Of a stretch of DNA of 46,837 bases, positions 36,155-46,837 are shown piece by piece. Numbering within the stretch: position 1 is the first letter of the stretch; every line of letters begins with the position of its first letter. The DNA comes from a candidate division WOR-3 bacterium (GTDB taxonomy: Bacteria; Hydrothermota; Hydrothermia; Hydrothermales; JAJRUZ01), in NCBI GenBank assembly GCA_039803925.1, contig JBDRZL010000017.1, forward strand, positions 1 through 46,837, written 5' to 3'. The translations under genes and the position numbers were made by a program. The notes beneath the pieces are model-generated. The model was given only the letters and a program-made list of their open reading frames with translations, had not been told where the DNA came from and made no database searches.

Positions 36155-36898
36155 GTGAAAGCAGGAATTATTGGATTTGGAAAAGTGGGAAGTTCCCTCT
36201 ATGACCTTTTGAGGGAAAAATCTTTTAAGGTAAATATATTTTCAGTAACAAAGGGAAAAGGAAATTTAAAAGATTTAGTTATAAATTCAGATTTAATTTT
36301 CATAACTGTTAAGGACGATCTTATTCCTTTAAGGGTTAAAGAAATAAGTAAAATAAAAGGGATTAAAGGAAAACACTTTATTCATCTTTCAGGTGCAACA
36401 CCTTTATCAATTCTTGAGCCTTTAAAGAAAAAGGGAAATTTTATAGGTAAACTTCATCCAATCCAAACTTTTCCTGAAAGAAGTAAAGAAAGTTTTAAAA
36501 ATATATACGCAACTTTTTCAGGAAATGAAGAAACTTATAAAATCTTAAAAAAAATTTTCTCAAGGGATTTCAAAATAATAAAAATGGAGGATAAAGAGCA
36601 GATTTTGATTCACATTGCCTGTGTTTTTGCCTCAAATTTTTCTGTATATTCAATTTTAAAGGCAGAGGAAATCCTTGAAAGTTTAAAATTGAAAAGAGAA
36701 ATTTTAAAACCAATAATAAATGCATCCTTTAAAAATGTCCTTTCAAAAGGAGCAAAAAACTCTTTAACAGGTCCTGCAAGAAGAAAGGATTTAAAAACAA
36801 TAAAACTTCACAGGAAAATATTAAAAAATTTTAAAAAAGATTTATACAAGATTTATAATTATTTAACAGAGAAAATTTTAAATGAAAGAAACTTATAA
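36155..36898 (+). CDS. DUF2520/Rossmann-like NAD(P)-binding protein
   Basis: 247 aa, GTG start. The N-terminal Rossmann fold opens KAGIIGFGKVGSSL (GxGxxG). FITVKDDLIP, HFIHLSGATPLSIL and GKLHPIQTFPE are typical of the DUF2520 family, whose C-terminal helical domain (about 130-245) resembles ketopantoate-reductase-like dimerisation domains. Substrate unknown; homologues often lie near pantothenate genes, but none is seen here. It overlaps the cNMP-binding gene by 17 nt. Confidence 0.85.
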   Translation: MKAGIIGFGKVGSSLYDLLREKSFKVNIFSVTKGKGNLKDLVINSDLIFITVKDDLIPLRVKEISKIKGIKGKHFIHLSGATPLSILEPLKKKGNFIGKLHPIQTFPERSKESFKNIYATFSGNEETYKILKKIFSRDFKIIKMEDKEQILIHIACVFASNFSVYSILKAEEILESLKLKREILKPIINASFKNVLSKGAKNSLTGPARRKDLKTIKLHRKILKNFKKDLYKIYNYLTEKILNERNL

Positions 36899-37394
36899 AA
36901 ATTTCCTTTTAAATCACCCCTTACTTAAAGGTATAGGTGAAAAGGGGATAGATAGTATTTCTTCAATTGCGTCTTTTATATATCTTAAAAAGGGCGAAAT
37001 ACTTTTCAAGGAAGGTTCAGAAGGAGAGGATTTATATATAATTGTTGAAGGTGAAGCTGAAATTTTAAAGGGAAAAGAACTTGTGAAAATTGCAGAGTTA
37101 AAGGAAGGAGCAATAATAGGTGAGCTTTCTTTTCTTTTAAAGAGTGGAAGAACAGCAACTTTAAGAGCAAGTAAGGATTCAATTTTTTTTAGAATTGATG
37201 GGAAACTTCTTGAGGAAAAAATTTTAAAAGGAGAAAAACCTTACATTGAGATTTTATTTTCAATATCAAGAATTATAGCAGAAAGGTTAAGCAACATGAA
37301 TCTTATTGTATCTGAATATTTAAAAAAAGATAAAATAGAAAAAGATGAACTTAATCAGTTAAAAGAAAATTTAAAAGAGGGTTTTATTTTTTAA
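36882..37394 (+). CDS. Cyclic-nucleotide-binding-domain protein without DNA-binding domain
   Basis: 170 aa. Residues 10-125 form a cNMP-binding beta-roll: FIYLKKGEILFKEGSEGEDLYIIVEGEAEI, then GAIIGELSFLLKSGRTATLRA with the phosphate-binding-cassette pattern GELSxL...RTAT. The C-terminus is a helix (140-170) with no helix-turn-helix, so it is not a CRP-type transcription factor. It may be a small ligand sensor for the neighbouring DUF2520 or JAMM protein. Close packing (2 nt to the next gene) indicates an operon. Confidence 0.85.
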   Translation: MKETYKNFLLNHPLLKGIGEKGIDSISSIASFIYLKKGEILFKEGSEGEDLYIIVEGEAEILKGKELVKIAELKEGAIIGELSFLLKSGRTATLRASKDSIFFRIDGKLLEEKILKGEKPYIEILFSISRIIAERLSNMNLIVSEYLKKDKIEKDELNQLKENLKEGFIF

Positions 37395-37396
37395 CT

Positions 37397-37933
37397 ATGA
37401 ATTTATCACCAGATGTTATTATTTTGAAATCGCCAGCTTTCCTTGAAATGATACTTGCCTCAGCAGAATCTTATCACTATGAATGTTATGGTCTTATACT
37501 TGGTTATTTTAATAATAGGGAAATAATTGTTGAGGATGCGCAGGTTTTACAGATTGTAAAAAAGTCTCCTTACAGTGTTGCGCCTATAGCAAAGAGGGAA
37601 AAAAGAATAATTCAATTAATTAATTCCTTAAAAATTGAAAATCTTAAAGTTATAGGAGATTTTCATTCCCATCCAATGGTTGGAGGAATAAAGGGAAAAT
37701 CTTCTCCTTCAGGTGATGATATTCTGGATATGGAAGTAGGTAAAGTATACATTATAGTTTCAGTTAATGAAAGTAAAAGAGAAAGAGCCTGGTCTTATAG
37801 TATAAAAAGAAAAATTTTAAGGGGTTCAATTTTCAATTTTAGCTTTGAAATTTCCGGTTATTATTGTCATAAAAATTTGAGTTATAAAAAACTACATATA
37901 AACTGTCCTTTTCTTATGGCAATTAATACTTAA
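37397..37933 (+). CDS. JAMM/MPN-domain metalloprotease-like protein
   Basis: 178 aa. The JAMM zinc motif is complete: Glu in YECYGLILG near residue 29, then DFHSHP near 90, and SPSGDD about twelve residues on (HxHx(10-12)SxxD). Such proteins cleave isopeptide-like bonds or process ubiquitin-like and sulfur-carrier proteins in bacteria. No small ubiquitin-like, E1 or ThiS/MoaD gene is beside it, so the substrate is unknown. No signal peptide. The last ~30 residues, with some Cys and His (YYCHKNLSYKKLHINC), are unlike the family core. Confidence 0.8.
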   Translation: MNLSPDVIILKSPAFLEMILASAESYHYECYGLILGYFNNREIIVEDAQVLQIVKKSPYSVAPIAKREKRIIQLINSLKIENLKVIGDFHSHPMVGGIKGKSSPSGDDILDMEVGKVYIIVSVNESKRERAWSYSIKRKILRGSIFNFSFEISGYYCHKNLSYKKLHINCPFLMAINT

Positions 37934-37934
37934 A

Positions 37935-40118
37935 ATGATTTTGTTTAAAATTCTTATAGCCTTTTCAAGTATTTCTGGAAGGGTGATAGATAAAAAAACA
38001 AGTGAATCTCTTCCTTTTGTTTTTGTTTATATAAAGGATTTAAATAAAGGAACACTTACAGATGAAAGGGGTTTTTATGTTATTTCAAAATTAAAAGAAG
38101 GAAAATATCTTTTATGTTTTAAAATTGTTGGTTATGAGGAAAAATGTTTAGAAGTGGAATTGAGGGAAGGAGAGAATAAAATTTTAAATGTTGAGCTAAA
38201 TCAGATTGAAATAGAAATTGAAAAAATTATCATTTATTCAAGAAAAAAGGAATTTGAAGAGGAAAGGGCTTCTGCCGTAAAAAGGGAAACAGAAATTTTA
38301 AAGAGACTTCCAAAATTTATTGAAGGAGATCTTTTAAGAACAGTTTCCACCTTACCTGGTGTGGTTCAGGTAACAGATTTATCAGGCAGGTTCTCTGTTA
38401 GAGGAGGTTCTCCTCAGGAAAATTTAACACTTATTGATGAAATTCCCCTTTATAACCCCTATCATCTCGGTGGAATTTTCTCGGTTTTTGATCTTTCAGC
38501 ACTTTCAAGGTATGAATTTTACAGGGGAGCTTATGGGGCTCAATTTGGAAATGCTTTATCCTCGCTTTTATATGCTGAAATAAAACCTTATAATTCAGAA
38601 AAAATAAATCTTGAATTAGCTTTAAGTTTTTTATCTTTCCGCCTTTTAAATGAAGGAAAACTTTTTAAGGGAAATTACCTTGTTTTTTTGAGAAGAACCT
38701 ATTTTGATAAATATATTTCTTTGATAAACAGGGATTTTGAATTTCCCTATCATTTTTTTGATATTTTATCTTCCTATCAGATTGAAAAATCACCCTCTTT
38801 AAGATTTAAATTCTCCTACATTACAAGTAGAGATTTATTTTATCAGAAAAAAGATGAAATCCTTTTAAAATGGGGAAATGATGGTTTTTCCTTTAGAACT
38901 TTTTATATACATAGAAAAAACTTTCATGAAATAAATTTATTTTTCTCTTCTTTTTTCAGTTATTTTAAAATAGGAGAGTTTATTTCCCTCTGGAATCCTG
39001 TTTCCATAGCTGGTTTAAAATGGAAGGGAGAGTTTAAGGGAAGTTTTGATAAAACTTTTGGTTTTGAATATGAGAATCTAAATGGAAAATTTCAGAATGA
39101 TATTTTTGGTATTAAACAACTTGATAAAGGAAATCCTCACATCCTTTCTTTCTTTTCTGAATTAAATTTCAAAGTAAATAATTTAAGAATTAATCCGGGT
39201 TTAAGGACAAATTATTTTTATTTAAGAATCAAGGAAACACCTGAGAGAAATGCTAAAAGTTTTAGAATTGAACCAAGGATTAATTTAAAATATTTTCTGA
39301 GAGAAAATCTTGCAATTAAATTTGCTTTTGGAGTTTTCAATCAGTATCTTATGGCTATCAATTTTTCAGAAGTTTTTGATCCCTTTTATTACTGGGTAAC
39401 AATTTTTGATGGTTATAGGCCAATGAATTCAAAACATTATATAACAGGAATTTCCTATTTGCCAGATTGGGGTAAAATTGATTTTGAAATCTTTTACAAG
39501 AAGTATGATTACATTCTTGACTATGAAATAAAAAACTATGACCCATTAAATCCTGATAAAACCTTGTTTTTAAAAGGGCAAGGAGAAAGTTACGGTTTTG
39601 ATTCTTTTATTGAAAAGACCTTTGGAAAATTAAATTTTAATTTAAGTTTGACAGTATTAAAGTCTCACGGAAAATTTGAAAAGGAAAACAAATATCATTC
39701 AATGAGGTGGGATAAAACCTTCAATTTTTCTTTAAGTTTATTTTATAAGTTAATATTCAATTTAGATCTGGGGTTAAATTTTTTATATACAACTGGTTCA
39801 CCCTTCACAGATGTTATTAAAAGGTATAGATTCTTTTATAATCCATATCCAGATAGATATCCAAAGGTTATATGGGATGAAATTGAATCCTATCCTTATA
39901 GTGTAAGGTTTCCACCTTATCACAGGCTTGATATTTCCCTTTCAAGGGATTTCAAAATAAAAAAAATTAAGGGCTTTTATTCCTTGAGTATAATAAATGT
40001 TTACAACAGAAAAAATGTATTTTTATATTATTATGATTATGATAAAGAACCACCTGTGAAACGAGAATTATATCAAATTCCCTTTGTTCCAAGTTTTGAA
40101 ATAAAAATTATTTTTTAG
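37935..40118 (+). CDS. TonB-dependent outer-membrane receptor with carboxypeptidase-D-like domain
   Basis: 727 aa. A short export signal (ILFKILIAFSSIS) precedes a carboxypeptidase regulatory-like domain (about 14-95: SGRVIDKKTSESLPFVFVYI, TDERGFYVI). The plug (about 115-215) includes TLPGVVQVTDLSGRFSVRGG and GGIFSVFDLSALSRYEFYRG, and a barrel runs to residue 727. The barrel is on the short side. It imports an unknown substrate with TonB energy. The DUF4249 lipoprotein gene follows with no gap, a pairing known from Bacteroidetes receptors. Confidence 0.88.
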   Translation: MILFKILIAFSSISGRVIDKKTSESLPFVFVYIKDLNKGTLTDERGFYVISKLKEGKYLLCFKIVGYEEKCLEVELREGENKILNVELNQIEIEIEKIIIYSRKKEFEEERASAVKRETEILKRLPKFIEGDLLRTVSTLPGVVQVTDLSGRFSVRGGSPQENLTLIDEIPLYNPYHLGGIFSVFDLSALSRYEFYRGAYGAQFGNALSSLLYAEIKPYNSEKINLELALSFLSFRLLNEGKLFKGNYLVFLRRTYFDKYISLINRDFEFPYHFFDILSSYQIEKSPSLRFKFSYITSRDLFYQKKDEILLKWGNDGFSFRTFYIHRKNFHEINLFFSSFFSYFKIGEFISLWNPVSIAGLKWKGEFKGSFDKTFGFEYENLNGKFQNDIFGIKQLDKGNPHILSFFSELNFKVNNLRINPGLRTNYFYLRIKETPERNAKSFRIEPRINLKYFLRENLAIKFAFGVFNQYLMAINFSEVFDPFYYWVTIFDGYRPMNSKHYITGISYLPDWGKIDFEIFYKKYDYILDYEIKNYDPLNPDKTLFLKGQGESYGFDSFIEKTFGKLNFNLSLTVLKSHGKFEKENKYHSMRWDKTFNFSLSLFYKLIFNLDLGLNFLYTTGSPFTDVIKRYRFFYNPYPDRYPKVIWDEIESYPYSVRFPPYHRLDISLSRDFKIKKIKGFYSLSIINVYNRKNVFLYYYDYDKEPPVKRELYQIPFVPSFEIKIIF

Positions 40119-40832
40119 ATGAAAAGATTAAAAATTTTTCTTTTGACTTTAATTTTTATTTCCTGTAAAAAAGAAATAGAGAAGGTGATTATTCCGGATT
40201 ACATTGTTTGGTGTGTATTAAAGTCAAGTAAAAAATTTGAAGAGCAGATTGTTTTTGTTGATAGGTTATATAGTCCAGATGAAGTTCCATCACAAGGTGT
40301 TTCCGGGTGTTCTGTTAAAATAAAATTTGGGGGTAAAGAATATTTATTTAAAGAAAAAATAGTTAGTGACATAGATTCAAATGAATATCTTGTATATTAT
40401 GATACTTTTTATGTTCCCTCAGGTATAGATTGTACCCTTAAAATTAAGTTTCCTGATTCAAGGGAGCTTATCAAGGTTACAAAGGTTCCAACTGATTTTG
40501 ATATAATTTATCCCATTTACGATACGATTTATGTTCCTTCTAACAATTTACTTATATGGAATAAAAGTGAAGGAGCGAAATTTTATGTTATTTATTTAGA
40601 GAATACTAAAGATTCCTTTTTTACATTTTTTTCACCTGACACCTTTTTTGATCTTTTCAGAAGGGGAAGTGCATTTAGATCTGAAGGTATTTACGAGGTT
40701 TATGTTAGGGCTGAAAATGAAGATCTTTATTACTGGAATTTAAACAGGAGTGATAGGATAGAGGAAGAGTGGGTAAAGGGTGTTTTTGGAGCATATGTAG
40801 AAAGAAGAAAAAGTTTTTATATAAAGAAATAA
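40119..40832 (+). CDS. DUF4249-like outer-membrane lipoprotein
   Basis: 237 aa. The lipobox is clear: MKRLKIFLLTLIFISC, with Cys16 lipidated. The remainder is a set of strands with an Ig-like flavour (VVWCVL-type start, VSGCSVKIKFGGKEYLF, YYDTFYVPSGIDCTLKIKFPDSRELIKVTKVP), matching DUF4249 lipoproteins that sit next to TonB-dependent receptors. It starts directly after the receptor stop, so the two form a transport pair. Confidence 0.75.
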   Translation: MKRLKIFLLTLIFISCKKEIEKVIIPDYIVWCVLKSSKKFEEQIVFVDRLYSPDEVPSQGVSGCSVKIKFGGKEYLFKEKIVSDIDSNEYLVYYDTFYVPSGIDCTLKIKFPDSRELIKVTKVPTDFDIIYPIYDTIYVPSNNLLIWNKSEGAKFYVIYLENTKDSFFTFFSPDTFFDLFRRGSAFRSEGIYEVYVRAENEDLYYWNLNRSDRIEEEWVKGVFGAYVERRKSFYIKK

Positions 40833-40852
40833 ATTATTCCTCTTTCTTTTTT
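40823..40852 (+). terminator. Possible terminator between convergent genes
   Basis: AAAGAAA (40823-40829) pairs with TTTCTTT (40843-40849), then a T run. It lies over the two convergent stop codons. Weak AT stem. Confidence 0.35.
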
Positions 40853-41550
40853 AAAAGGTAAATAGAATAAAATGCCATAAGTAAACCAACAATCCCATGG
40901 GTAATATAGGCTAAGGCATTATTTATATAATTAAGAAGAGGAATAAATATAACTTCTATAATTCCAAGAATATAAAAAAATGGAAGAACAAATCCTGTAA
41001 CAAAAAGACCCATTCCGGTTGTGTAGCTATAAAGGGGATTGACAATTTTATTTATATCTTCTCCAAGAACATTATAAAAAAGAAAAATATTAAATATAAT
41101 TCCAGCAAAGGCAAATCCCCAGAAAATGCCTATTTTAGGAATTACACTTAATTTTGAATTGAGAGGTTTATAAGTTTTTCTTTTAATTCCTATGTAGTAG
41201 TTCATGTAATAACCAAAGGTAACAAGAATTCCAATAAAAATTGCAGAAATATATAGGGGTATTCCAAGTTTTGGAATTATAAAGAAATAGATTATAGAAA
41301 AGATTCCCCATATTAAAATAGAGAAAATTATGCCTGAAACATGAATTGTAGAGAAAAAGAAGGCAAGAGGCAAAAGATAAAACCATAAAATGTATTTTTC
41401 TGTTATAAGAGTTATAAAAACACAAGTTGAAATATAAAACCCGAATATTATCATGTATATAGCAAAGTGTTTAATTTCTTTTTTAGCTCTCTGAGAGATA
41501 TATTTAAGTATATCTATGGTTTCAAGGATTTCTTCAATTTCTTTTTTCAT
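40834..41550 (-). CDS. Multi-pass membrane protein of unknown function
   Basis: 238 aa with about seven predicted membrane segments (roughly 22-42, 45-63, 66-82, 84-104, 135-158, 180-203, 210-232). The N-terminal 20 residues are charged and helical. No family recognised. It is the last gene of a three-gene unit with a 55-aa membrane protein and a winged-helix regulator. The 33-nt gap to the regulator gene carries a GGTTCAAATCC motif instead of a Shine-Dalgarno. It may be the effector or sensor controlled by the regulator. Confidence 0.7.
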   Translation of the reverse strand: MKKEIEEILETIDILKYISQRAKKEIKHFAIYMIIFGFYISTCVFITLITEKYILWFYLLPLAFFFSTIHVSGIIFSILIWGIFSIIYFFIIPKLGIPLYISAIFIGILVTFGYYMNYYIGIKRKTYKPLNSKLSVIPKIGIFWGFAFAGIIFNIFLFYNVLGEDINKIVNPLYSYTTGMGLFVTGFVLPFFYILGIIEVIFIPLLNYINNALAYITHGIVGLLMAFYSIYLLKKKEE

Positions 41551-41572
41551 ATTTTATATAAAAATTTAAGGG

Positions 41573-41583
41573 GGATTTGAACC
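41573..41583 (-). promoter_or_regulatory. Leader motif GGTTCAAATCC, copy 3
   Basis: Minus strand, directly after the regulator's TAG (41586-41584) and 22 nt before the ATG of the membrane gene. With flanking bases it reads GGGTTCAAATCCCC, so a 3-bp stem can close the T-loop-like 7-nt loop. Confidence 0.6.
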
Positions 41584-41877
41584 CTATTTTATTTCTTTTA
41601 AAATTTTCTTTAGCTTATCAAGGTAATCTAAAAGTTTATTTTTACCTGAATCAGATAATTTATAAAAAGTTTTTGGTCTTCTGCCCACAAAAGTTTTTTT
41701 AACTTCAATTAATTTATTATCTTCAAGCACCCTCAAATGGGAGGAAAGGTTTCCTTCAGTAGTATCAGTAATTTTTTTGAGTGTTGAAAAATCTACTTCT
41801 TTATTCTGCAGAAGATAAATGAGTATTGAAAGCCTTGTTTTTTCATGAATTATTGGGTCAAGTTCTTTGAATTTCAT
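41584..41877 (-). CDS. Winged-helix transcriptional regulator (ArsR/MarR-like)
   Basis: 97 aa. The helix-turn-helix is readable as TLKKITDTTEGNLSSHLRVLEDNKLI, followed by a wing VKKTFVGRRPKTFYKLSDSGKNKL and a C-terminal dimer helix. Small regulators of this form usually repress their own operon. Its ATG overlaps the stop of the 55-aa gene (ATGA). An 18-bp perfect palindrome at the operon's predicted start site is the natural candidate operator. Confidence 0.85.
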   Translation of the reverse strand: MKFKELDPIIHEKTRLSILIYLLQNKEVDFSTLKKITDTTEGNLSSHLRVLEDNKLIEVKKTFVGRRPKTFYKLSDSGKNKLLDYLDKLKKILKEIK

Positions 41878-42041
41878 TTTTTAAGAAAATAGAGAATTCC
41901 CCAAAGTATAAAACCGAAACCCATACCTATAGAAGAGCCTACAGCAACTTTTCCGAAAAGAAAGCCTATACCCAATCCGATAAAAAGAAAACCTAAAAAT
42001 ATCATGGGACCTGCACTTTTTAGTGATTTTTTATTTTCCAT
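41874..42041 (-). CDS. Small membrane protein, 55 aa
   Basis: ATG at 42041-42039 to TGA at 41876-41874, translationally coupled to the regulator gene (ATGA). After a short basic start (ENKKSLKSAGP) there are two Gly-rich membrane segments, MIFLGFLFIGLGIGFLFG (13-30) and SSIGMGFGFILWGILYFL (36-53), separated by a tight turn. No family recognised. Coding support is the continuous frame, the coupling, and the promoter and operator in front of it. Confidence 0.75.
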   Translation of the reverse strand: MENKKSLKSAGPMIFLGFLFIGLGIGFLFGKVAVGSSIGMGFGFILWGILYFLKK

Positions 42042-42064
42042 TTTTTAAAAATTTTTGTTTTACA

Positions 42065-42075
42065 GGATTTGAACC
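42065..42075 (-). promoter_or_regulatory. Leader motif GGTTCAAATCC, copy 4
   Basis: Minus strand, 23 nt before the ATG of the 55-aa gene, in the predicted leader downstream of the palindrome. No Shine-Dalgarno lies between the motif and the ATG. Confidence 0.6.
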
Positions 42076-42081
42076 TTTTAT

Positions 42082-42099
42082 TTACAAATTAATTTGTAA
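42082..42099. promoter_or_regulatory. 18-bp perfect palindrome, probable operator
   Basis: TTACAAATTAATTTGTAA is its own reverse complement. It begins 5 nt downstream of the -10 on the minus strand, so it covers the predicted transcription start. A repressor bound here would block the operon; the operon encodes a winged-helix protein. Confidence 0.75.
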
Positions 42100-42104
42100 T
42101 ATAA

Positions 42105-42133
42105 ATTATACTGTAAAAAAAATAAAATTTCAA
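42105..42133 (-). promoter_or_regulatory. Sigma-70-type promoter of the membrane protein/regulator operon
   Basis: Minus strand TTGAAA (42133-42128), 17-nt spacer, TATAAT (42110-42105). Start site expected near 42098, inside the palindrome. Confidence 0.75.
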
Positions 42134-42261
42134 GTTTTAAAAATATAATCTTTAAGCAACCTTCAGATCTCATTAAAATTAATTCTTTCAGACTGATAGT
42201 TAAATTAATCTTATCAATTTTTCCAATTTTTTTTTGAAATTTTCTTACCTCTCAAGCATTT

Positions 42262-42291
42262 TTGATAAAATTAACATGTTAATATTATAAT
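42262..42291 (+). promoter_or_regulatory. Sigma-70-type promoter with palindrome in the spacer
   Basis: TTGATA (42262-42267), 18-nt spacer, TATAAT (42286-42291). The spacer holds a 12-bp perfect palindrome, TTAACATGTTAA (42271-42282), a likely repressor site. A second TATAAT at 42308-42313, 11 nt before the ATG, could give a nearly leaderless transcript instead. Confidence 0.6.
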
Positions 42292-42324
42292 TTATTTTGA
42301 ATATTATTATAATTTGCTTTAAAT

Positions 42325-43320
42325 ATGAATTTTGAAGAATATTTAAAAGAAATCAATATTAAAATTTTAAATTTTTGTAAAGAGTATAATTTTCTTCATC
42401 ATAAAGATGACCTTTTAGGAGAAGCATTTTTATGTTTTAAAAAATGTAAGGAAAAATTTAAAGGGGATGAAAGAGAGTTTAAGAATTATTTTTTGAAATC
42501 CTTAGATAATCATTTCTTGAATTATTTAAAGAGGGAAACAAAATTAATTTTAAAAGAGAATGAGGAACTTGAGATGCTAAATGAGGTAAAAAATGAAAAA
42601 TTTTTAGAAGACTTTGAAAGGATTTTATATAGATTAAAGGATGAAGAATTATGGATTATAAGTTTAATAAAGCAAGGGTTTAATTTAAAAGAGATTTCAA
42701 AAAAATTGAATATTTCTTATGAAAGAGTTAAGGATATTTTTTCTGAGATAAAGAGTAAAATTAATCCTGATAAAAGAAGCAGGAAAGAATTAAGAAGGAA
42801 ATGGTTGGTTGAAAATGAAGAAAGGGTGAAAGAGATTCAAAGGAAATGGAAAAATAAAAATCCTCATTATTTTATTAAATGGAGAAAAAAGAATAAGGAT
42901 TACCATAAAAATTGGAGATCAAAAATTCCGTTTTATATGAGAAAATATATGAGTTTAAGAAGACTTTTAAATAAAGATTTTTTAAATGTTATTTATAATT
43001 TTTTAAAATTTTTATGTAAATGTGAAAAAATTGAATTAAAGGATTTGAAAAAGAATAGTTTTTCAGTGGAATTAAATTGTAAGGATTGCTTATTAAATAT
43101 TTTTTTATTTGATGATTTAGAAATTGGGAAAATAAAAGAGGAAAGTAAGATTGTTATTTTTTCAAATATAAATTCATTAAAGAATCCAGAAAATCAATTA
43201 AGGTGTAAAAGGATATATTTATTTGAAGGAAGGGAATTTTTGAAAAAGATTGAATATAGTTTTATTTCAGATTTAAAACATAAAAAAATTTTAATCATAA
43301 CAAAATCTCAGATTCGTTAA
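42325..43320 (+). CDS. Sigma-70-like protein (regions 2 and 4) with long basic C-terminal extension
   Basis: 331 aa. Residues 20-75 look like sigma region 2 (HHKDDLLGEAFLCFKKCKEKF, then REFKNYFLKSLDNHFLNYLKRETK). Residues 95-145 look like region 4 with a helix-turn-helix (FNLKEISKKLNISYERVKDIFSEIK). After that comes an unusual Arg/Lys/Trp-rich stretch (about 152-215) with RRKWLVENEERVKEIQRKWK and related repeats, like basic linkers of HNH-type phage proteins. An unrecognised C-terminal domain (about 220-331) with a Cys trio (FLCKCEK, NCKDC) follows. It lies just before the second RiPP-type cluster and could control it. A phage- or mobile-element-derived sigma is an alternative. Confidence 0.65.
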   Translation: MNFEEYLKEINIKILNFCKEYNFLHHKDDLLGEAFLCFKKCKEKFKGDEREFKNYFLKSLDNHFLNYLKRETKLILKENEELEMLNEVKNEKFLEDFERILYRLKDEELWIISLIKQGFNLKEISKKLNISYERVKDIFSEIKSKINPDKRSRKELRRKWLVENEERVKEIQRKWKNKNPHYFIKWRKKNKDYHKNWRSKIPFYMRKYMSLRRLLNKDFLNVIYNFLKFLCKCEKIELKDLKKNSFSVELNCKDCLLNIFLFDDLEIGKIKEESKIVIFSNINSLKNPENQLRCKRIYLFEGREFLKKIEYSFISDLKHKKILIITKSQIR

Positions 43321-43369
43321 AAAAAAAAAAACCGAAAAGGCTTTTTAAATTGTTATATATATAATAAGA

Positions 43370-43401
43370 CCCTGATAAATTGGTTAAAGCCCAACTCAGG
43401 G
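43370..43401 (+). promoter_or_regulatory. Two-part hairpin in the leader of precursor peptide A
   Basis: CCCTGA (43370-43375) pairs with TCAGGG (43396-43401), and inside it TTGG (43380-43383) pairs with CCAA (43391-43394). The hairpin ends 13 nt before the Shine-Dalgarno of the 34-aa peptide. TATAAT at 43360-43365 just upstream may be a -10. The hairpin could be a terminator of the sigma-like gene (no T run) or an mRNA-stabilising leader. Confidence 0.5.
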
Positions 43402-43425
43402 ATTAAAAATAAAAAGGAGGAAAAC

Positions 43426-43530
43426 ATGAAAATAGTAAACCAAGGAAAAACAAGTGTCACACCCCAAAATGAGTGCCCCATTTTGTATTGTGGAAAGTTC
43501 TGTTTCTTGGGTTATAGGGGTGATGCGTGA
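43426..43530 (+). CDS. Candidate RiPP precursor peptide A, 34 aa, Cys-rich
   Basis: Preceded by a strong Shine-Dalgarno (AAAAAGGAGG, 43411-43420). The N-terminus MKIVNQGK matches MKVINKGE of the 61-aa peptide at the other end of the cluster. The C-terminal part CPILYCGKFCFLGY (residues 17-30) shares the motif YCxKFCxxGY with that peptide. Cys17, Cys22 and Cys26 are the likely modified residues. A radical SAM/SPASM gene and an ABC exporter gene follow. Support is the ribosome-binding site, the similarity to the second peptide and the neighbourhood; the peptide itself matches no family I know. Confidence 0.75.
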   Translation: MKIVNQGKTSVTPQNECPILYCGKFCFLGYRGDA

Positions 43531-43548
43531 AAAACCCAAATAAGACAA

Positions 43549-43570
43549 GGGGGGGTACTCCCCCCCCTTT
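43549..43570 (+). terminator. G7/C8 hairpin between precursor A and its maturase
   Basis: GGGGGGG (43549-43555), a 4-nt loop TACT, and CCCCCCCC (43560-43567), then TTT. The T run is short, so it may act as an attenuator or 3'-end stabiliser for the precursor message. A second inverted repeat, TTGGGTT/AACCCAA (43507-43513 and 43533-43539), overlaps the precursor's stop codon. Confidence 0.65.
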
Positions 43571-43608
43571 CATATTAATCCATAATAAAAATAAAAAATA
43601 ATAAAAAG

Positions 43609-44889
43609 ATGAATAAAAAGAGTGAGTTTGAGTGGAAAAAAAGCTATTATAATATAGAAATAGAAGTTGATAAAGGAATTTTACTTTACAATATTCTGTC
43701 AAAAGGTTTTGTTCTTCTTGATGAAAAGGAATATATTGAATTTTATAAAAATGAAAATTTATGGGATAAAAACGAAAAAATGTTAGAAGAGTTTACTTCA
43801 AATGGATTTATTGTTAAAGGAAATGATAGGGAAACTTTTTTAAAAAATTTCGATGAAATTGAAAATGTAAATAAAAAATATTTAGGCATCACTTTTGTCC
43901 CAACCCAGCTCTGCAACTTCAATTGTTCTTACTGTTTTGAAAGAAGTAAAAAATATGATATGGAAGAATCAATTTTTAAAAAATCTATTGAATTTATAAA
44001 GGAAATTATAGATAGCAAAAATGAGCTAGAAAATATAAGTGTGTTATTCTTTGGAGGGGAACCATTGATAAAACTTGACATGGTATTAAAGTTTGGAGAA
44101 GTCATAAAAAATATATCAAAAGAAAAAAAATTAAATTTCTCTTCTTCAATCATTACAAATGGTTATTATTTAAATTATGACACTGCAAAAGCACTCTGCG
44201 AAATTTGCAATTTAAAATTTGTCCAAATAACCCTTGATGGTGATAGAAATTTTCATAATAAAAGAAGAAATAACAGTTATGAAATTTTAATGAATAATTT
44301 AGAAAAAATCAAAGAATTTAAAGATTTAAAAATTTCAATAAGAATTCAGGTTGATAAGGAAAACATTTTTAGTATTAAGAATCTTTTAAATGATTTGAAA
44401 AAATTTGATGAAGATAAAAATATTAGTTTCTATTTCTCTTCCATCCTGGGTGAATTTGAAGAAAATCCTGATAAAAGAAATATTCATTTTGATGAAAAAG
44501 AATTTGGGAAAATACTTACAGAAAATATAATTCCTTTAATTTTTGAGATAGGTTTTAATAATTTTGAACTTTATCCACAACCTCATGCAGGTGGATGTGG
44601 TTTTGTATCCGAAAACAGTTTTATAATTGATGCTGATGGAAGATTAAAAGAATGCCTTGAACTTGTTGGAGAAGAGGAAAGCTGTGGTAATATTTTTGAT
44701 AAAAAAATTAATAAAAAATTGAGTAATCTTAAATTTAAATTACCAGATTTTTGTGTTTATTGTAAGTTTTTACCACTATGTAATGGTTCCTGTCCTTTGA
44801 GAAGGTCGAAGGGAATTATTAAATGCTCATTCTGGAAGTATTCACTTAAAGATTATTTAAAGAAAATCTACGAATTTAAATTTAAATGA
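43609..44889 (+). CDS. Radical SAM/SPASM peptide maturase
   Basis: 426 aa. The first ~90 residues (YYNIEIEVDKGILLYNILSKGFVLLDEKEY) form a winged-helix-like N-terminal domain as seen in peptide-modifying radical SAM enzymes, so no separate PqqD-like protein is needed. The cluster motif is CNFNCSYC (Cys102, 106, 109), with FFGGEPL near 145 and QITLDGDR near 200. The C-terminal SPASM region has CGFVSE, KECLELV, ESCGNIF and CVYCKFLPLCNGSCPL. It probably installs crosslinks on the Cys peptides at 43426 and 46447. It overlaps the ABC exporter gene by 4 nt. Confidence 0.9.
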   Translation: MNKKSEFEWKKSYYNIEIEVDKGILLYNILSKGFVLLDEKEYIEFYKNENLWDKNEKMLEEFTSNGFIVKGNDRETFLKNFDEIENVNKKYLGITFVPTQLCNFNCSYCFERSKKYDMEESIFKKSIEFIKEIIDSKNELENISVLFFGGEPLIKLDMVLKFGEVIKNISKEKKLNFSSSIITNGYYLNYDTAKALCEICNLKFVQITLDGDRNFHNKRRNNSYEILMNNLEKIKEFKDLKISIRIQVDKENIFSIKNLLNDLKKFDEDKNISFYFSSILGEFEENPDKRNIHFDEKEFGKILTENIIPLIFEIGFNNFELYPQPHAGGCGFVSENSFIIDADGRLKECLELVGEEESCGNIFDKKINKKLSNLKFKLPDFCVYCKFLPLCNGSCPLRRSKGIIKCSFWKYSLKDYLKKIYEFKFK

Positions 44890-46463
44890 GAGAAATTAAA
44901 AAATTTTTCTCAACTTTCAAAAATTTAGTATGGAAAAACAACAGTTTTAGATTTTCAGTTTTTGTTTTATTTACCCTTTTAAGTGTATTTTTCGCTACAA
45001 TTACTTCGTTTTTAGTGAAAGAAATTGTGGATAAGGGTGTAATAAATAAAGATTTTAACTTTCTTTTTCGTTTTGGTTTTTTGACACTTTTTTCCTGGAT
45101 GATATCAATACTTTTGGGTTTCTTTTCAACTATAACTTTAAGATATTTAAGAAACAGGGTCGAAATAAAACTAAGGGTAAATTTACTTAAAAATTTCTAT
45201 TCCCTTGATTATGAATTTATTTCAAAACGTCCTTCAGGGTATTTTTTATCAAGAATTCATGATGAGCCCGATTCAATAATAACAAGTTTATTAACAACAA
45301 CCTCTGGTATTGTTTTAAATCTTTTCTGGAGTATACTTGGTTTTTCTATTGGTTTCTTAATTGCTCCCCAGTTATGCATTTTCATTATCCCATTTTTTTT
45401 AATAAATACCTTTTTAAATTACTTTTTCGGAGGAAAATATAAAATTTTTATTAAAGAAAGGGATGAAAAAAGTGCTTTACTTCAGGGTTTTTTAAATAAT
45501 TTAATTGAAAATTATAAGTTGATAAAAATTTTTGAAATAATTAACCATGCAGAGAAAAAATTTAAATTGAAATTAAAAGAATTTCTTCAATTTTTAACAA
45601 AAGTAACATTCTTTACAGCTTCTATAAACAATATTCAAGCATTTCTCCAGATGATTATGCAGATTGGGTTACTGATTTTTGCAGGTTATGAAATTTTAAA
45701 TGGTAGGTTAACAATAGGTAGTTATTTAGGTTTTAGCACAATATTATGGCAGTTGATTTCTGCTGTTGAAAACCTGTATAATTCAATAATAAACATCAGA
45801 GAATGCACTGGAGAAATAGAAAGAATGGAAGAACTTTCTCCATCCCCTTATAAAGTTTCATTTAATTTTTCAAATAATAAAAAGATTGTATTTAAAAATG
45901 TTGAAGTTAGTCTTCTTGATAAAAAAATTAAATATCCAGATTTTGAAATTCCTGAAGGTAAAAGGGTTTTAATTTTAGGAGAAAATGGGAGTGGAAAAAC
46001 AACACTACTTTATACCCTTTGTGGTCTATATTCTTTTAATGGTGAAATAAGTTTATTTTCAAAAAATATCTCAATTTCCTTTGCCCCTCCACTTTTAATG
46101 GACGGGAATATATACGAGAATTTAGAAATTATTTCGGGATGTAAAAAAGAGGAAATAGACTATTACCTTGATATTTTTAATTTGAATCATTTAAAAACAA
46201 AAAATGTAAATTTGCTTTCAGCGGGGGAAAGAAAAAAAATTGATATAATAAGATGTTTTCTTAAAAAAAGTGATATATATCTTTTTGATGAACCTTTTAC
46301 TAATGTTGACGAAAATGGAAAGGAAAAGTTTTTAGAGACCATGGGAAAGTTTAAAGATAAGACATTTATAATTACATCGCCCTCGCAATTTGAAACTCTT
46401 AATCAATTTTTCGATATAATTATAAAAATTAAAAAGGAGGAACAAAATGAAGGTAATAAATAA
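44886..46463 (+). CDS. ABC exporter, fused membrane and ATPase domains
   Basis: 525 aa. Six membrane helices in residues 15-310 (ABC type I exporter), then an ATPase domain with Walker A GENGSGKT near 366-373, signature LLSAGERKK and Walker B IYLFDEPFTN. The ATPase is compact. There is no N-terminal C39 peptidase, so leader removal needs a different protease. Coupled by ATGA to the maturase gene; the probable export route for the modified peptides. Its last 17 nt overlap the second precursor gene. Confidence 0.92.
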   Translation: MREIKKFFSTFKNLVWKNNSFRFSVFVLFTLLSVFFATITSFLVKEIVDKGVINKDFNFLFRFGFLTLFSWMISILLGFFSTITLRYLRNRVEIKLRVNLLKNFYSLDYEFISKRPSGYFLSRIHDEPDSIITSLLTTTSGIVLNLFWSILGFSIGFLIAPQLCIFIIPFFLINTFLNYFFGGKYKIFIKERDEKSALLQGFLNNLIENYKLIKIFEIINHAEKKFKLKLKEFLQFLTKVTFFTASINNIQAFLQMIMQIGLLIFAGYEILNGRLTIGSYLGFSTILWQLISAVENLYNSIINIRECTGEIERMEELSPSPYKVSFNFSNNKKIVFKNVEVSLLDKKIKYPDFEIPEGKRVLILGENGSGKTTLLYTLCGLYSFNGEISLFSKNISISFAPPLLMDGNIYENLEIISGCKKEEIDYYLDIFNLNHLKTKNVNLLSAGERKKIDIIRCFLKKSDIYLFDEPFTNVDENGKEKFLETMGKFKDKTFIITSPSQFETLNQFFDIIIKIKKEEQNEGNK

Positions 46464-46632
46464 AGGTGAAGAATTTCAAAATTTAAAAAAACAGACACCT
46501 TGTAAAATAAAATATTGTAATGAATATGTTTGTCCTCCTTCCACACACAAACCTTTTAAATTTCTTTATTGTAAAAAATTCTGTTGGGGAGGATATGTTG
46601 AAAAAGATACATTCAATAAAAAAATTGAATAA
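46447..46632 (+). CDS. Candidate RiPP precursor peptide B, 61 aa, Cys-rich
   Basis: Starts inside the end of the exporter gene but has its own Shine-Dalgarno (AAAAAGGAGG, 46432-46441). Leader-like MKVINKGEE corresponds to MKIVNQGK of peptide A. Two Cys segments follow: CKIKYCNEYVC (Cys19, 24, 29) and FLYCKKFCWGGY (Cys42, 46). Both resemble the single CPILYCGKFC segment of peptide A, so peptide B may carry a duplicated core. A Lys/Asp-rich tail follows (51-61). Cargo of the same maturase and exporter is inference. Confidence 0.75.
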   Translation: MKVINKGEEFQNLKKQTPCKIKYCNEYVCPPSTHKPFKFLYCKKFCWGGYVEKDTFNKKIE

Positions 46633-46652: not shown

Positions 46653-46837
46653 ATGATTAAATTGATTTTATTATTCTCCTATCTTTTAACCCTTCAAAAA
46701 TTTGAGGTAGGAAAGATTGTAATTGATGGGATTCTATCAGAAAATGAATGGCTATCTTTAACCCCAATAACTGAATTTATTGAATTTCAACCAGAAGAAG
46801 GGAAAATTCCTCCTTTCAAAACTGAAGTGTTTATTGG
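46653..46837 (+). CDS. Exported protein with CBM9/DUF5916-like N-terminus, partial
   Basis: Cut by the window end; 61 complete codons are visible. A signal peptide (KLILLFSYLLTL) precedes KIVIDGILSENEWLSLTPI and TEFIEFQPEEGKIPPFKTEVFI, the typical start of carbohydrate-binding family 9-like domains in DUF5916 proteins. A strong Shine-Dalgarno (AAAAAGGAGG) lies after the stop of peptide B, so it may be transcribed with the RiPP cluster. DUF5916 proteins are usually large outer-membrane-associated proteins. Confidence 0.7.
   Translation, partial: MIKLILLFSYLLTLQKFEVGKIVIDGILSENEWLSLTPITEFIEFQPEEGKIPPFKTEVFI

Follow-up and report, generated by a model that had tools for sequence, protein, structure and literature searches.

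Two putative cysteine-rich precursors, one radical SAM maturase and an outer-membrane barrel partner in an exchangeable peptide cassette of a WOR-3 bacterium

A contig of 46,837 nucleotides from a candidate division WOR-3 bacterium (JBDRZL010000017.1; this whole stretch is called the window here) ends in a compact group of genes in which two very small cysteine-rich peptides, A and B, flank a radical S-adenosylmethionine (rSAM) enzyme with a SPASM domain and an ATP-binding cassette (ABC) exporter. What does such a group make, and how would its products cross, or remain at, the outer membrane? We consider it probable, at about 0.68, that it is a cassette for ribosomally synthesized and post-translationally modified peptides (RiPPs), in which one enzyme cross-links both peptides, the ABC protein exports them and an outer-membrane barrel passes or holds the products, the block being swappable in a shared frame. 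Synteny with a sister species (G001) shows that peptides, maturase and exporter are one swappable block, set in a frame of regulator, promoter-like element and barrel in which class III lanthipeptide blocks are found as well. The original prediction had recognized the RiPP cluster, which it placed at 43426-46632; its four open reading frames (ORFs) stand, but the cassette runs from a sigma-like gene at 42325 past the window end, and it had not been noticed that the flanks are exchangeable, that a gene for an outer-membrane barrel is a partner and that a lanthipeptide counterpart exists.

The precursors and their maturase

The four ORFs are tightly packed on the forward strand. Peptide A (43426..43530; 34 aa, MKIVNQGKTSVTPQNECPILYCGKFCFLGYRGDA) is separated by 78 nt from the gene of the 426-aa maturase (43609..44889), which overlaps by 4 nt the gene of a single-chain, 525-aa ABC exporter (44886..46463; Pfam ABC_membrane and ABC_tran only, without a C39 peptidase domain), and the ATG of peptide B (46447..46632; 61 aa) lies within the final 17 nt of the ABC gene, in a different frame. 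Both peptides are preceded by a properly spaced Shine-Dalgarno sequence (SD), AAGGAGG. They have a common N-terminus, MK[IV][IV]N having exactly two matches when the window is translated in six frames, and a common core, YCxKFCxxGY, which likewise has two matches there and is absent from all 60 dinucleotide-preserving shuffles; in peptide B the cysteine segment is present twice, as CKIKYCNEYVC and LYCKKFC. The four ORFs, their strong SDs, the shared N-terminus and core and the doubled segment had been read correctly from the letters.

The sister species carries the whole set, with the enzyme 98% identical, 31/34 residues of peptide A and 60/61 of peptide B kept, and every cysteine of both peptides unchanged; this conservation, together with the shuffles, rules out chance or misread ORFs. 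Between the two species, purifying selection acts on the enzyme and on the exporter, and peptide B shows a single change in total. The overlap of its start with the 3′ end of the ABC gene is what could make peptide B a chance ORF, a view that is hardly credible: it has its own SD, leader and core are those of peptide A, the motif is absent from shuffles, and equivalents stand at the same position in two other genomes of the class (G034 and G022), so that conservation already refutes it. Precursor models of NCBIfam and Pfam gave no useful match to the window peptides or to those of the class, no GG or GA was found ahead of the core when a double-glycine leader was looked for, and a search of the bacterium's own genome (G000) for further copies of peptide B returned only a weak match containing stops.

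The maturase has a Pfam Radical_SAM match above cut-off (PF04055, 60.5 bits). In ten aligned sequences the CxxxCxxC cluster (C102, C106, C109) is invariant, as is the complete SPASM pattern GX4C...CX2CX5CX3C...C (C330, G344-C349, C382, C385, C391, C395, C406). Its AlphaFold2 model (predicted local distance difference test 82.6) places strands and then helices in residues 9-70, an N-terminal domain resembling a RiPP recognition element, in which no Pfam PqqD match is found. The thioether maturase CteB comes first both in a PDB profile search (5wgg/5why, E 2.5e-25) and in a fold search with the model. In a tree of 63 homologues the enzyme belongs to a ten-member clade confined to its class (SH-aLRT support 99). 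Its scores against the curated NCBIfam cut-offs are 191 of 525 bits for TIGR04463 (rSAM_vs_C_rich), 171.6 of 600 for Clo7bot (TIGR04334), 164 of 500 for FlmE/OhkG, 160 of 600 for CefB (NF038107), 117 of 400 for geopeptide, 104 of 340 for PapB and 60 of 425 for SCIFF. By sequence, the enzyme falls among the Clo7bot/TIGR04463/CefB/PapB-type maturases of cysteine peptides, below each family cut-off; assignment to Clo7bot, CefB, TIGR04463 or PapB was rejected, all curated cut-offs being missed. A literature search on Clo7bot, geopeptide and OhkG maturases found nothing relevant.

The idea that one maturase serves two precursors with the same leader is well supported, because the same short leader (MK-x-I/V-N) is found on small cysteine peptides beside class relatives of the enzyme. 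These relatives (about 40% enzyme identity) have such peptides both upstream and downstream of the maturase, with starts MKVIN, MRYIN, MKWIN and MEWIN and cores CxCF[LIV]xxC, and the 57-aa two-segment peptides of G034 and G022 have the build of peptide B. The leader style persists farther afield, at loci of Clostridia, Collinsella and Aminicenantes, so that the peptides do recur beside homologous maturases, as originally expected. The start M[KRDEN]x[ILVM] is present in 35 of 51 cysteine-rich, SD-preceded small ORFs near maturases vs 11 of 54 elsewhere (Fisher 7e-7, a P value that is only a guide, the loci being related), and of the two cores seen at such loci, one was counted 6 times and the other 9 times close to maturases, and neither among the ORFs elsewhere. 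Within this family of loci, G022 has nine maturase-like matches, at many different cysteine-peptide maturase loci with diverse precursors, and in G034 (C324; L034, 7048-7626) an rSAM gene truncated to 192 aa and lacking SPASM stands in an otherwise complete cassette adjoined by a full rSAM and ABC pair.

The original prediction had further suggested a new class of core. This was not supported: the enzyme lies among known cysteine-peptide maturases with CteB as its nearest structure, and a related core, C-x4-C-x3/4-C...[GNK]Y, is present at Collinsella and Eubacteriales loci. With Clo7bot (TIGR04333 peptide; L055) the window shares the short MK-x-I/V leader, several small cysteine peptides, an rSAM/SPASM maturase and an ABC exporter; however, its peptides have no TIGR04333 match, and the Clo7bot locus has six precursors, all upstream, and no recognized barrel. 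Ranthipeptides of the SCIFF/CteB and PapB types likewise have cysteine-rich precursors but differ in core spacing. The near full-length matches to TIGR04463 and CefB are accompanied by a cysteine at every fifth residue in the B segment CKIKYCNEYVC, a spacing that is broken by peptide A and by the second segment of B. The peptide system is best described, from these sequence comparisons, as a probable ranthipeptide-like variant of known cysteine-peptide rSAM systems, without family assignment, and the earlier claim of novelty was therefore too strong.

As to the chemistry itself, the enzyme's N-terminal domain would bind the short leader of A and B, and the maturase would then cross-link their cysteines, most likely by ranthipeptide-type thioethers. 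The same genes could make other cross-links, either sactionines (sulfur to alpha-carbon) or aromatic carbon-carbon links in the YCxKFCxxGY core, since SPASM enzymes make thioethers, sactionines and carbon-carbon links (PMC11002830) and Tyr, Phe and Trp abound in the core; we think this unlikely, as the nearest relatives in sequence and fold are CteB and the families that mature cysteine-rich peptides, and cysteine is the residue common to precursors across the clade.

Exchange with a class III lanthipeptide block

Positions 36592-43407 of the window align at 95% to a contig of the sister species, G001:C22, and no further alignment follows until 46768, from where the window DNA is 95.7% identical to the barrel gene of a lanthipeptide cassette. 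G001:C22 is the window's chromosomal neighbourhood, with the same TonB receptor, DUF4249 gene and 238-aa gene. In its slot after the leader hairpin described below (L188/L214, 1-6265) there stand a class III lanthipeptide precursor (MAVVLSLQKLPVAMPSAKAPVSLTSSIANCCNEIE; lanthi_III_c 26.9 bits, cut-off 27), LanKC, an ABC exporter and then a barrel gene with a CBM9 domain. LanKC has RamC_N, kinase and LANC_like parts and scores 710 bits with NF038151 (cut-off 575); a search of the window's own genome for LanKC found none. The rSAM cassette of the sister species is located on another contig, C17, where the sigma-like copy is broken by stops. Two unrelated RiPP chemistries therefore share one slot in sister species, between a common regulator and promoter and a common barrel type.

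The left edge of the exchangeable cassette is the gene of the sigma-70-like regulator (42325..43320, forward strand; 331 aa; TIGR02937 sigma70-ECF 50.4 bits, above the cut-off of 42.9). Left of its ATG the window is 97-100% identical to G001:C22; from the ATG onward C17 matches too, and between about 42484 and 42880 the window is closer to C17 than to C22. In G001 and G003, copies of the gene also stand ahead of other peptide cassettes. It is followed by a promoter-like element, CGAAAAGGCTTTTTAAATTGTTATATATA (43333..43361, forward), identical in both G001 cassettes and found with two bases changed ahead of a cysteine-peptide cassette in G003 (C36), where the sigma-like protein is 49% identical. 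The element is recognized by this conservation between cassettes, since a sigma-70 consensus scan was no better than shuffles (27 sites vs 29.7, no excess); a backwards control of the pattern gave 0 matches in 5 genomes. The sigma-like protein may read this element.

The frame or its element recurs at other loci. The G003:C36 cassette (L207, 6616-11851) has the sigma-like gene, two small cysteine peptides with signal-like N-termini, proteins of 330 and 188 aa and a DUF5916 barrel, and no recognizable maturase. On G001:C37 (L279, 253-1532) the element precedes an 80-aa ORF, two membrane proteins of about 117 aa and a very cysteine-rich 63-aa ORF (MVSCKLMCLGKNGGC...), with no maturase in the stretch as read. 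In the window's own genome two element copies (C3, 20407-20435, L276; C14, 515-543, L278) have no peptide ORF downstream and are perhaps empty or decayed cassette sites.

Two hairpins on the forward strand complete the left part of the cassette. The 5′ leader hairpin ahead of peptide A (43370..43401, CCCTGA...TTGG...CCAA...TCAGGG) folds with -10.4 kcal/mol (z -2.5) and, among 5 genomes, occurs only at three cassettes. The attenuator-like G/C hairpin in the gap between peptide A and the maturase (43547..43569), noted in a terminator scan, has each arm one base longer than in the sister species, with z -2.9 in both. A hairpin between precursor and enzyme is the usual arrangement in RiPP clusters and yields more precursor than enzyme. 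An Rfam scan of the window matched no family.

Across the class, the LanKC clusters of G022 (C2, L266) and G037 (C256, L265) repeat the gene order of the window: precursor 1, maturase, ABC exporter, a longer precursor 2 and an Oar-like barrel, precursor 2 lying between the ABC and receptor genes and consisting of the core plus an extra Ser/Cys tail, LKSSLSxKC. In G024 the order is LanKC, ABC, barrel, and the LanKC clusters of G030 and G033 have no barrel. The LanKC-linked exporters are 31-45% alike among themselves and 26-27% like the window exporter. The two CBM9 domains of the sister species, one rSAM-linked and one LanKC-linked, are 73% alike, and four of six pairs of rSAM-linked with LanKC-linked receptors (two of the latter) are 33-43% alike over their full length, a weaker comparison that for TonB-type barrels is only modestly above background, because a class receptor without known RiPP link (L256) reaches 28-50% with the cassette receptors. 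Judged by these sequences, exporters group by chemistry across the class and barrels do not.

The outer-membrane barrel partner

The barrel gene of the window (46653..46837, forward) is its 5′ part, cut by the contig end; the fragment is 89% identical to the G001 copy. At its N-terminus this G001 counterpart reaches 23.2 bits with CBM9_1, just below the cut-off of 23.4, and it overlaps by 127 nt (100%) a barrel gene on G001:C3 in which PF19313 (DUF5916) scores 38.3 bits, above cut-off. The lanthipeptide-linked barrel gene also shares 172 nt (98.8%) with C3, so the two G001 genes seem nearly identical in the overlapping part, although assembly collapse makes this uncertain. The model of a class-relative barrel has some two dozen long strands besides a CBM9 domain (PDB 7nwo; template modelling score 0.71 by target); its fold matches are ushers, porins, LptD and TonB receptors, at low whole-chain scores, and we therefore claim only the general fold.

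Of 40 genomes in the class, 36 have PF19313 (75 matches as counted), and for 11 of the 23 class maturases a DUF5916 gene is no more than 6 kb away, vs 0.49 expected (P about 3e-13, a value that treats related clusters as independent, one barrel serving two maturases). A profile made with twelve barrels of the class, six taken from the maturase loci themselves, picks up barrels at 14 of 19 maturase loci in the class, at 6 of 15 further loci in the phylum and at 0 of 79 loci of other named genomes. At G034 and G022:C27 precursor 2 is followed by a barrel of the Oar type, with CarboxypepD_reg, Plug and barrel parts. Six cassettes have precursor 2 immediately ahead of the barrel gene, and seven have it behind that gene. 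The DUF5916 barrel pairs with three-piece exporters too: at G011:C4, G016:C18 and G019:C1 (L044, L046, L050) we observed an rSAM gene followed by those of an ABC ATPase and two permeases and by a DUF5916 gene. Immediately to the left of the cassette, at 37935-40832, the window itself has a TonB-receptor-like gene with CarboxypepD_reg and then a DUF4249-like gene; the likeness of this receptor to the cassette-linked ones is only distant.

In the searched literature no described role of DUF5916 and no secretion precedent for it was found. For the general arrangement there are two partial precedents. The Bacteroides Itf cluster, like the window, groups RiPP precursor, rSAM enzyme, ABC exporter and an outer-membrane transporter, the TonB-dependent ItfF (PMC11002830); unlike it, the Itf cluster includes a YcaO, its ItfE carries a C39 peptidase, its barrel is of TonB type, and neither CBM9/DUF5916 nor a chemistry swap is described. 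Oar of Myxococcus, required for PopC secretion across the outer membrane (PMC6434023), has the CarboxypepD_reg, Plug and barrel parts of the barrels after the G034, G022 and G037 cassettes, but its cargo is a protease, not a RiPP. By analogy, Itf may be taken as precedent for pairing an rSAM RiPP system with a TonB-type barrel, and Oar for outward transport needing a CarboxypepD_reg barrel.

We propose that the peptidase-less exporter would carry the products to the periplasm, and that the barrel, CBM9/DUF5916 here and Oar-like of TonB type in some relatives, would take them across the outer membrane or retain them there. That exporters follow chemistry and barrels do not, and that a second, longer precursor often stands by the barrel, suggests a chemistry-independent outer-membrane partner. 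The wider proposal, that both barrel types are a chemistry-independent exit or docking point for RiPPs and that the longer precursor is made to work with the barrel, is tentative, and we hold it as possible rather than probable.

Two other roles for the barrel were weighed. In one, the secreted peptides are metallophores and the barrel is their uptake receptor; the cysteine-rich cores would suit metal binding and some relatives' barrels are TonB-receptor-like with CarboxypepD_reg and Plug, yet Plug is not matched in the commonest type of barrel (DUF5916 with CBM9), no inner-membrane importer is recognized in the cassette, and the same barrels accompany lanthipeptides, whose cysteines would be consumed in rings, which makes this role quite doubtful. 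In the other, A and B are a two-peptide antibacterial and the barrel is an immunity or target protein: darobactin and dynobactin are examples of RiPPs that target outer-membrane barrels (PMC11002830), and a pair of precursors in each cluster, like the swapping seen between sister species, would suit an arms race. Product-specific immunity would, however, not lead one to expect CBM9 parts so alike in two cassettes of one genome that differ in chemistry, and we regard this second role as improbable, a little less so than the first.

Weight of the evidence and meaning

The reading as a RiPP cassette with export across, or retention at, the outer membrane is favoured because of the conserved peptides and their leader, the rSAM/SPASM signature, CteB as best match, the same type of leader at a true Clo7bot locus, the cassette swap, the DUF5916 genes near class maturases, the matching gene order of LanKC clusters and the barrel model. 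Several points weigh against it. Peptide A differs from its G001 counterpart by three non-synonymous changes and one synonymous change, with no clear purifying selection; no NCBIfam model, of maturase or precursor, reaches its cut-off; and the cluster has no protease that would remove the leader. For the barrel, 61 codons of the window gene are readable before the contig ends, the enrichment near maturases and the likeness between receptors carry the limits given with them, and homologous Gram-positive clusters have no barrel, so that it is not needed for the chemistry.

The biochemical idea of the original prediction was sound in outline; the exchangeable frame with its barrel partner is the more interesting part of this locus. 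The exchange of rSAM and lanthipeptide blocks between the same flanks predicts that one barrel type accepts both products. If the barrel moves or holds peptides, this would give DUF5916 a function and point to a way in which RiPPs that lack a C39 exporter could exit a Gram-negative cell. For genome mining, it offers a handle by which second precursors, easily missed, may be found beside barrel genes.

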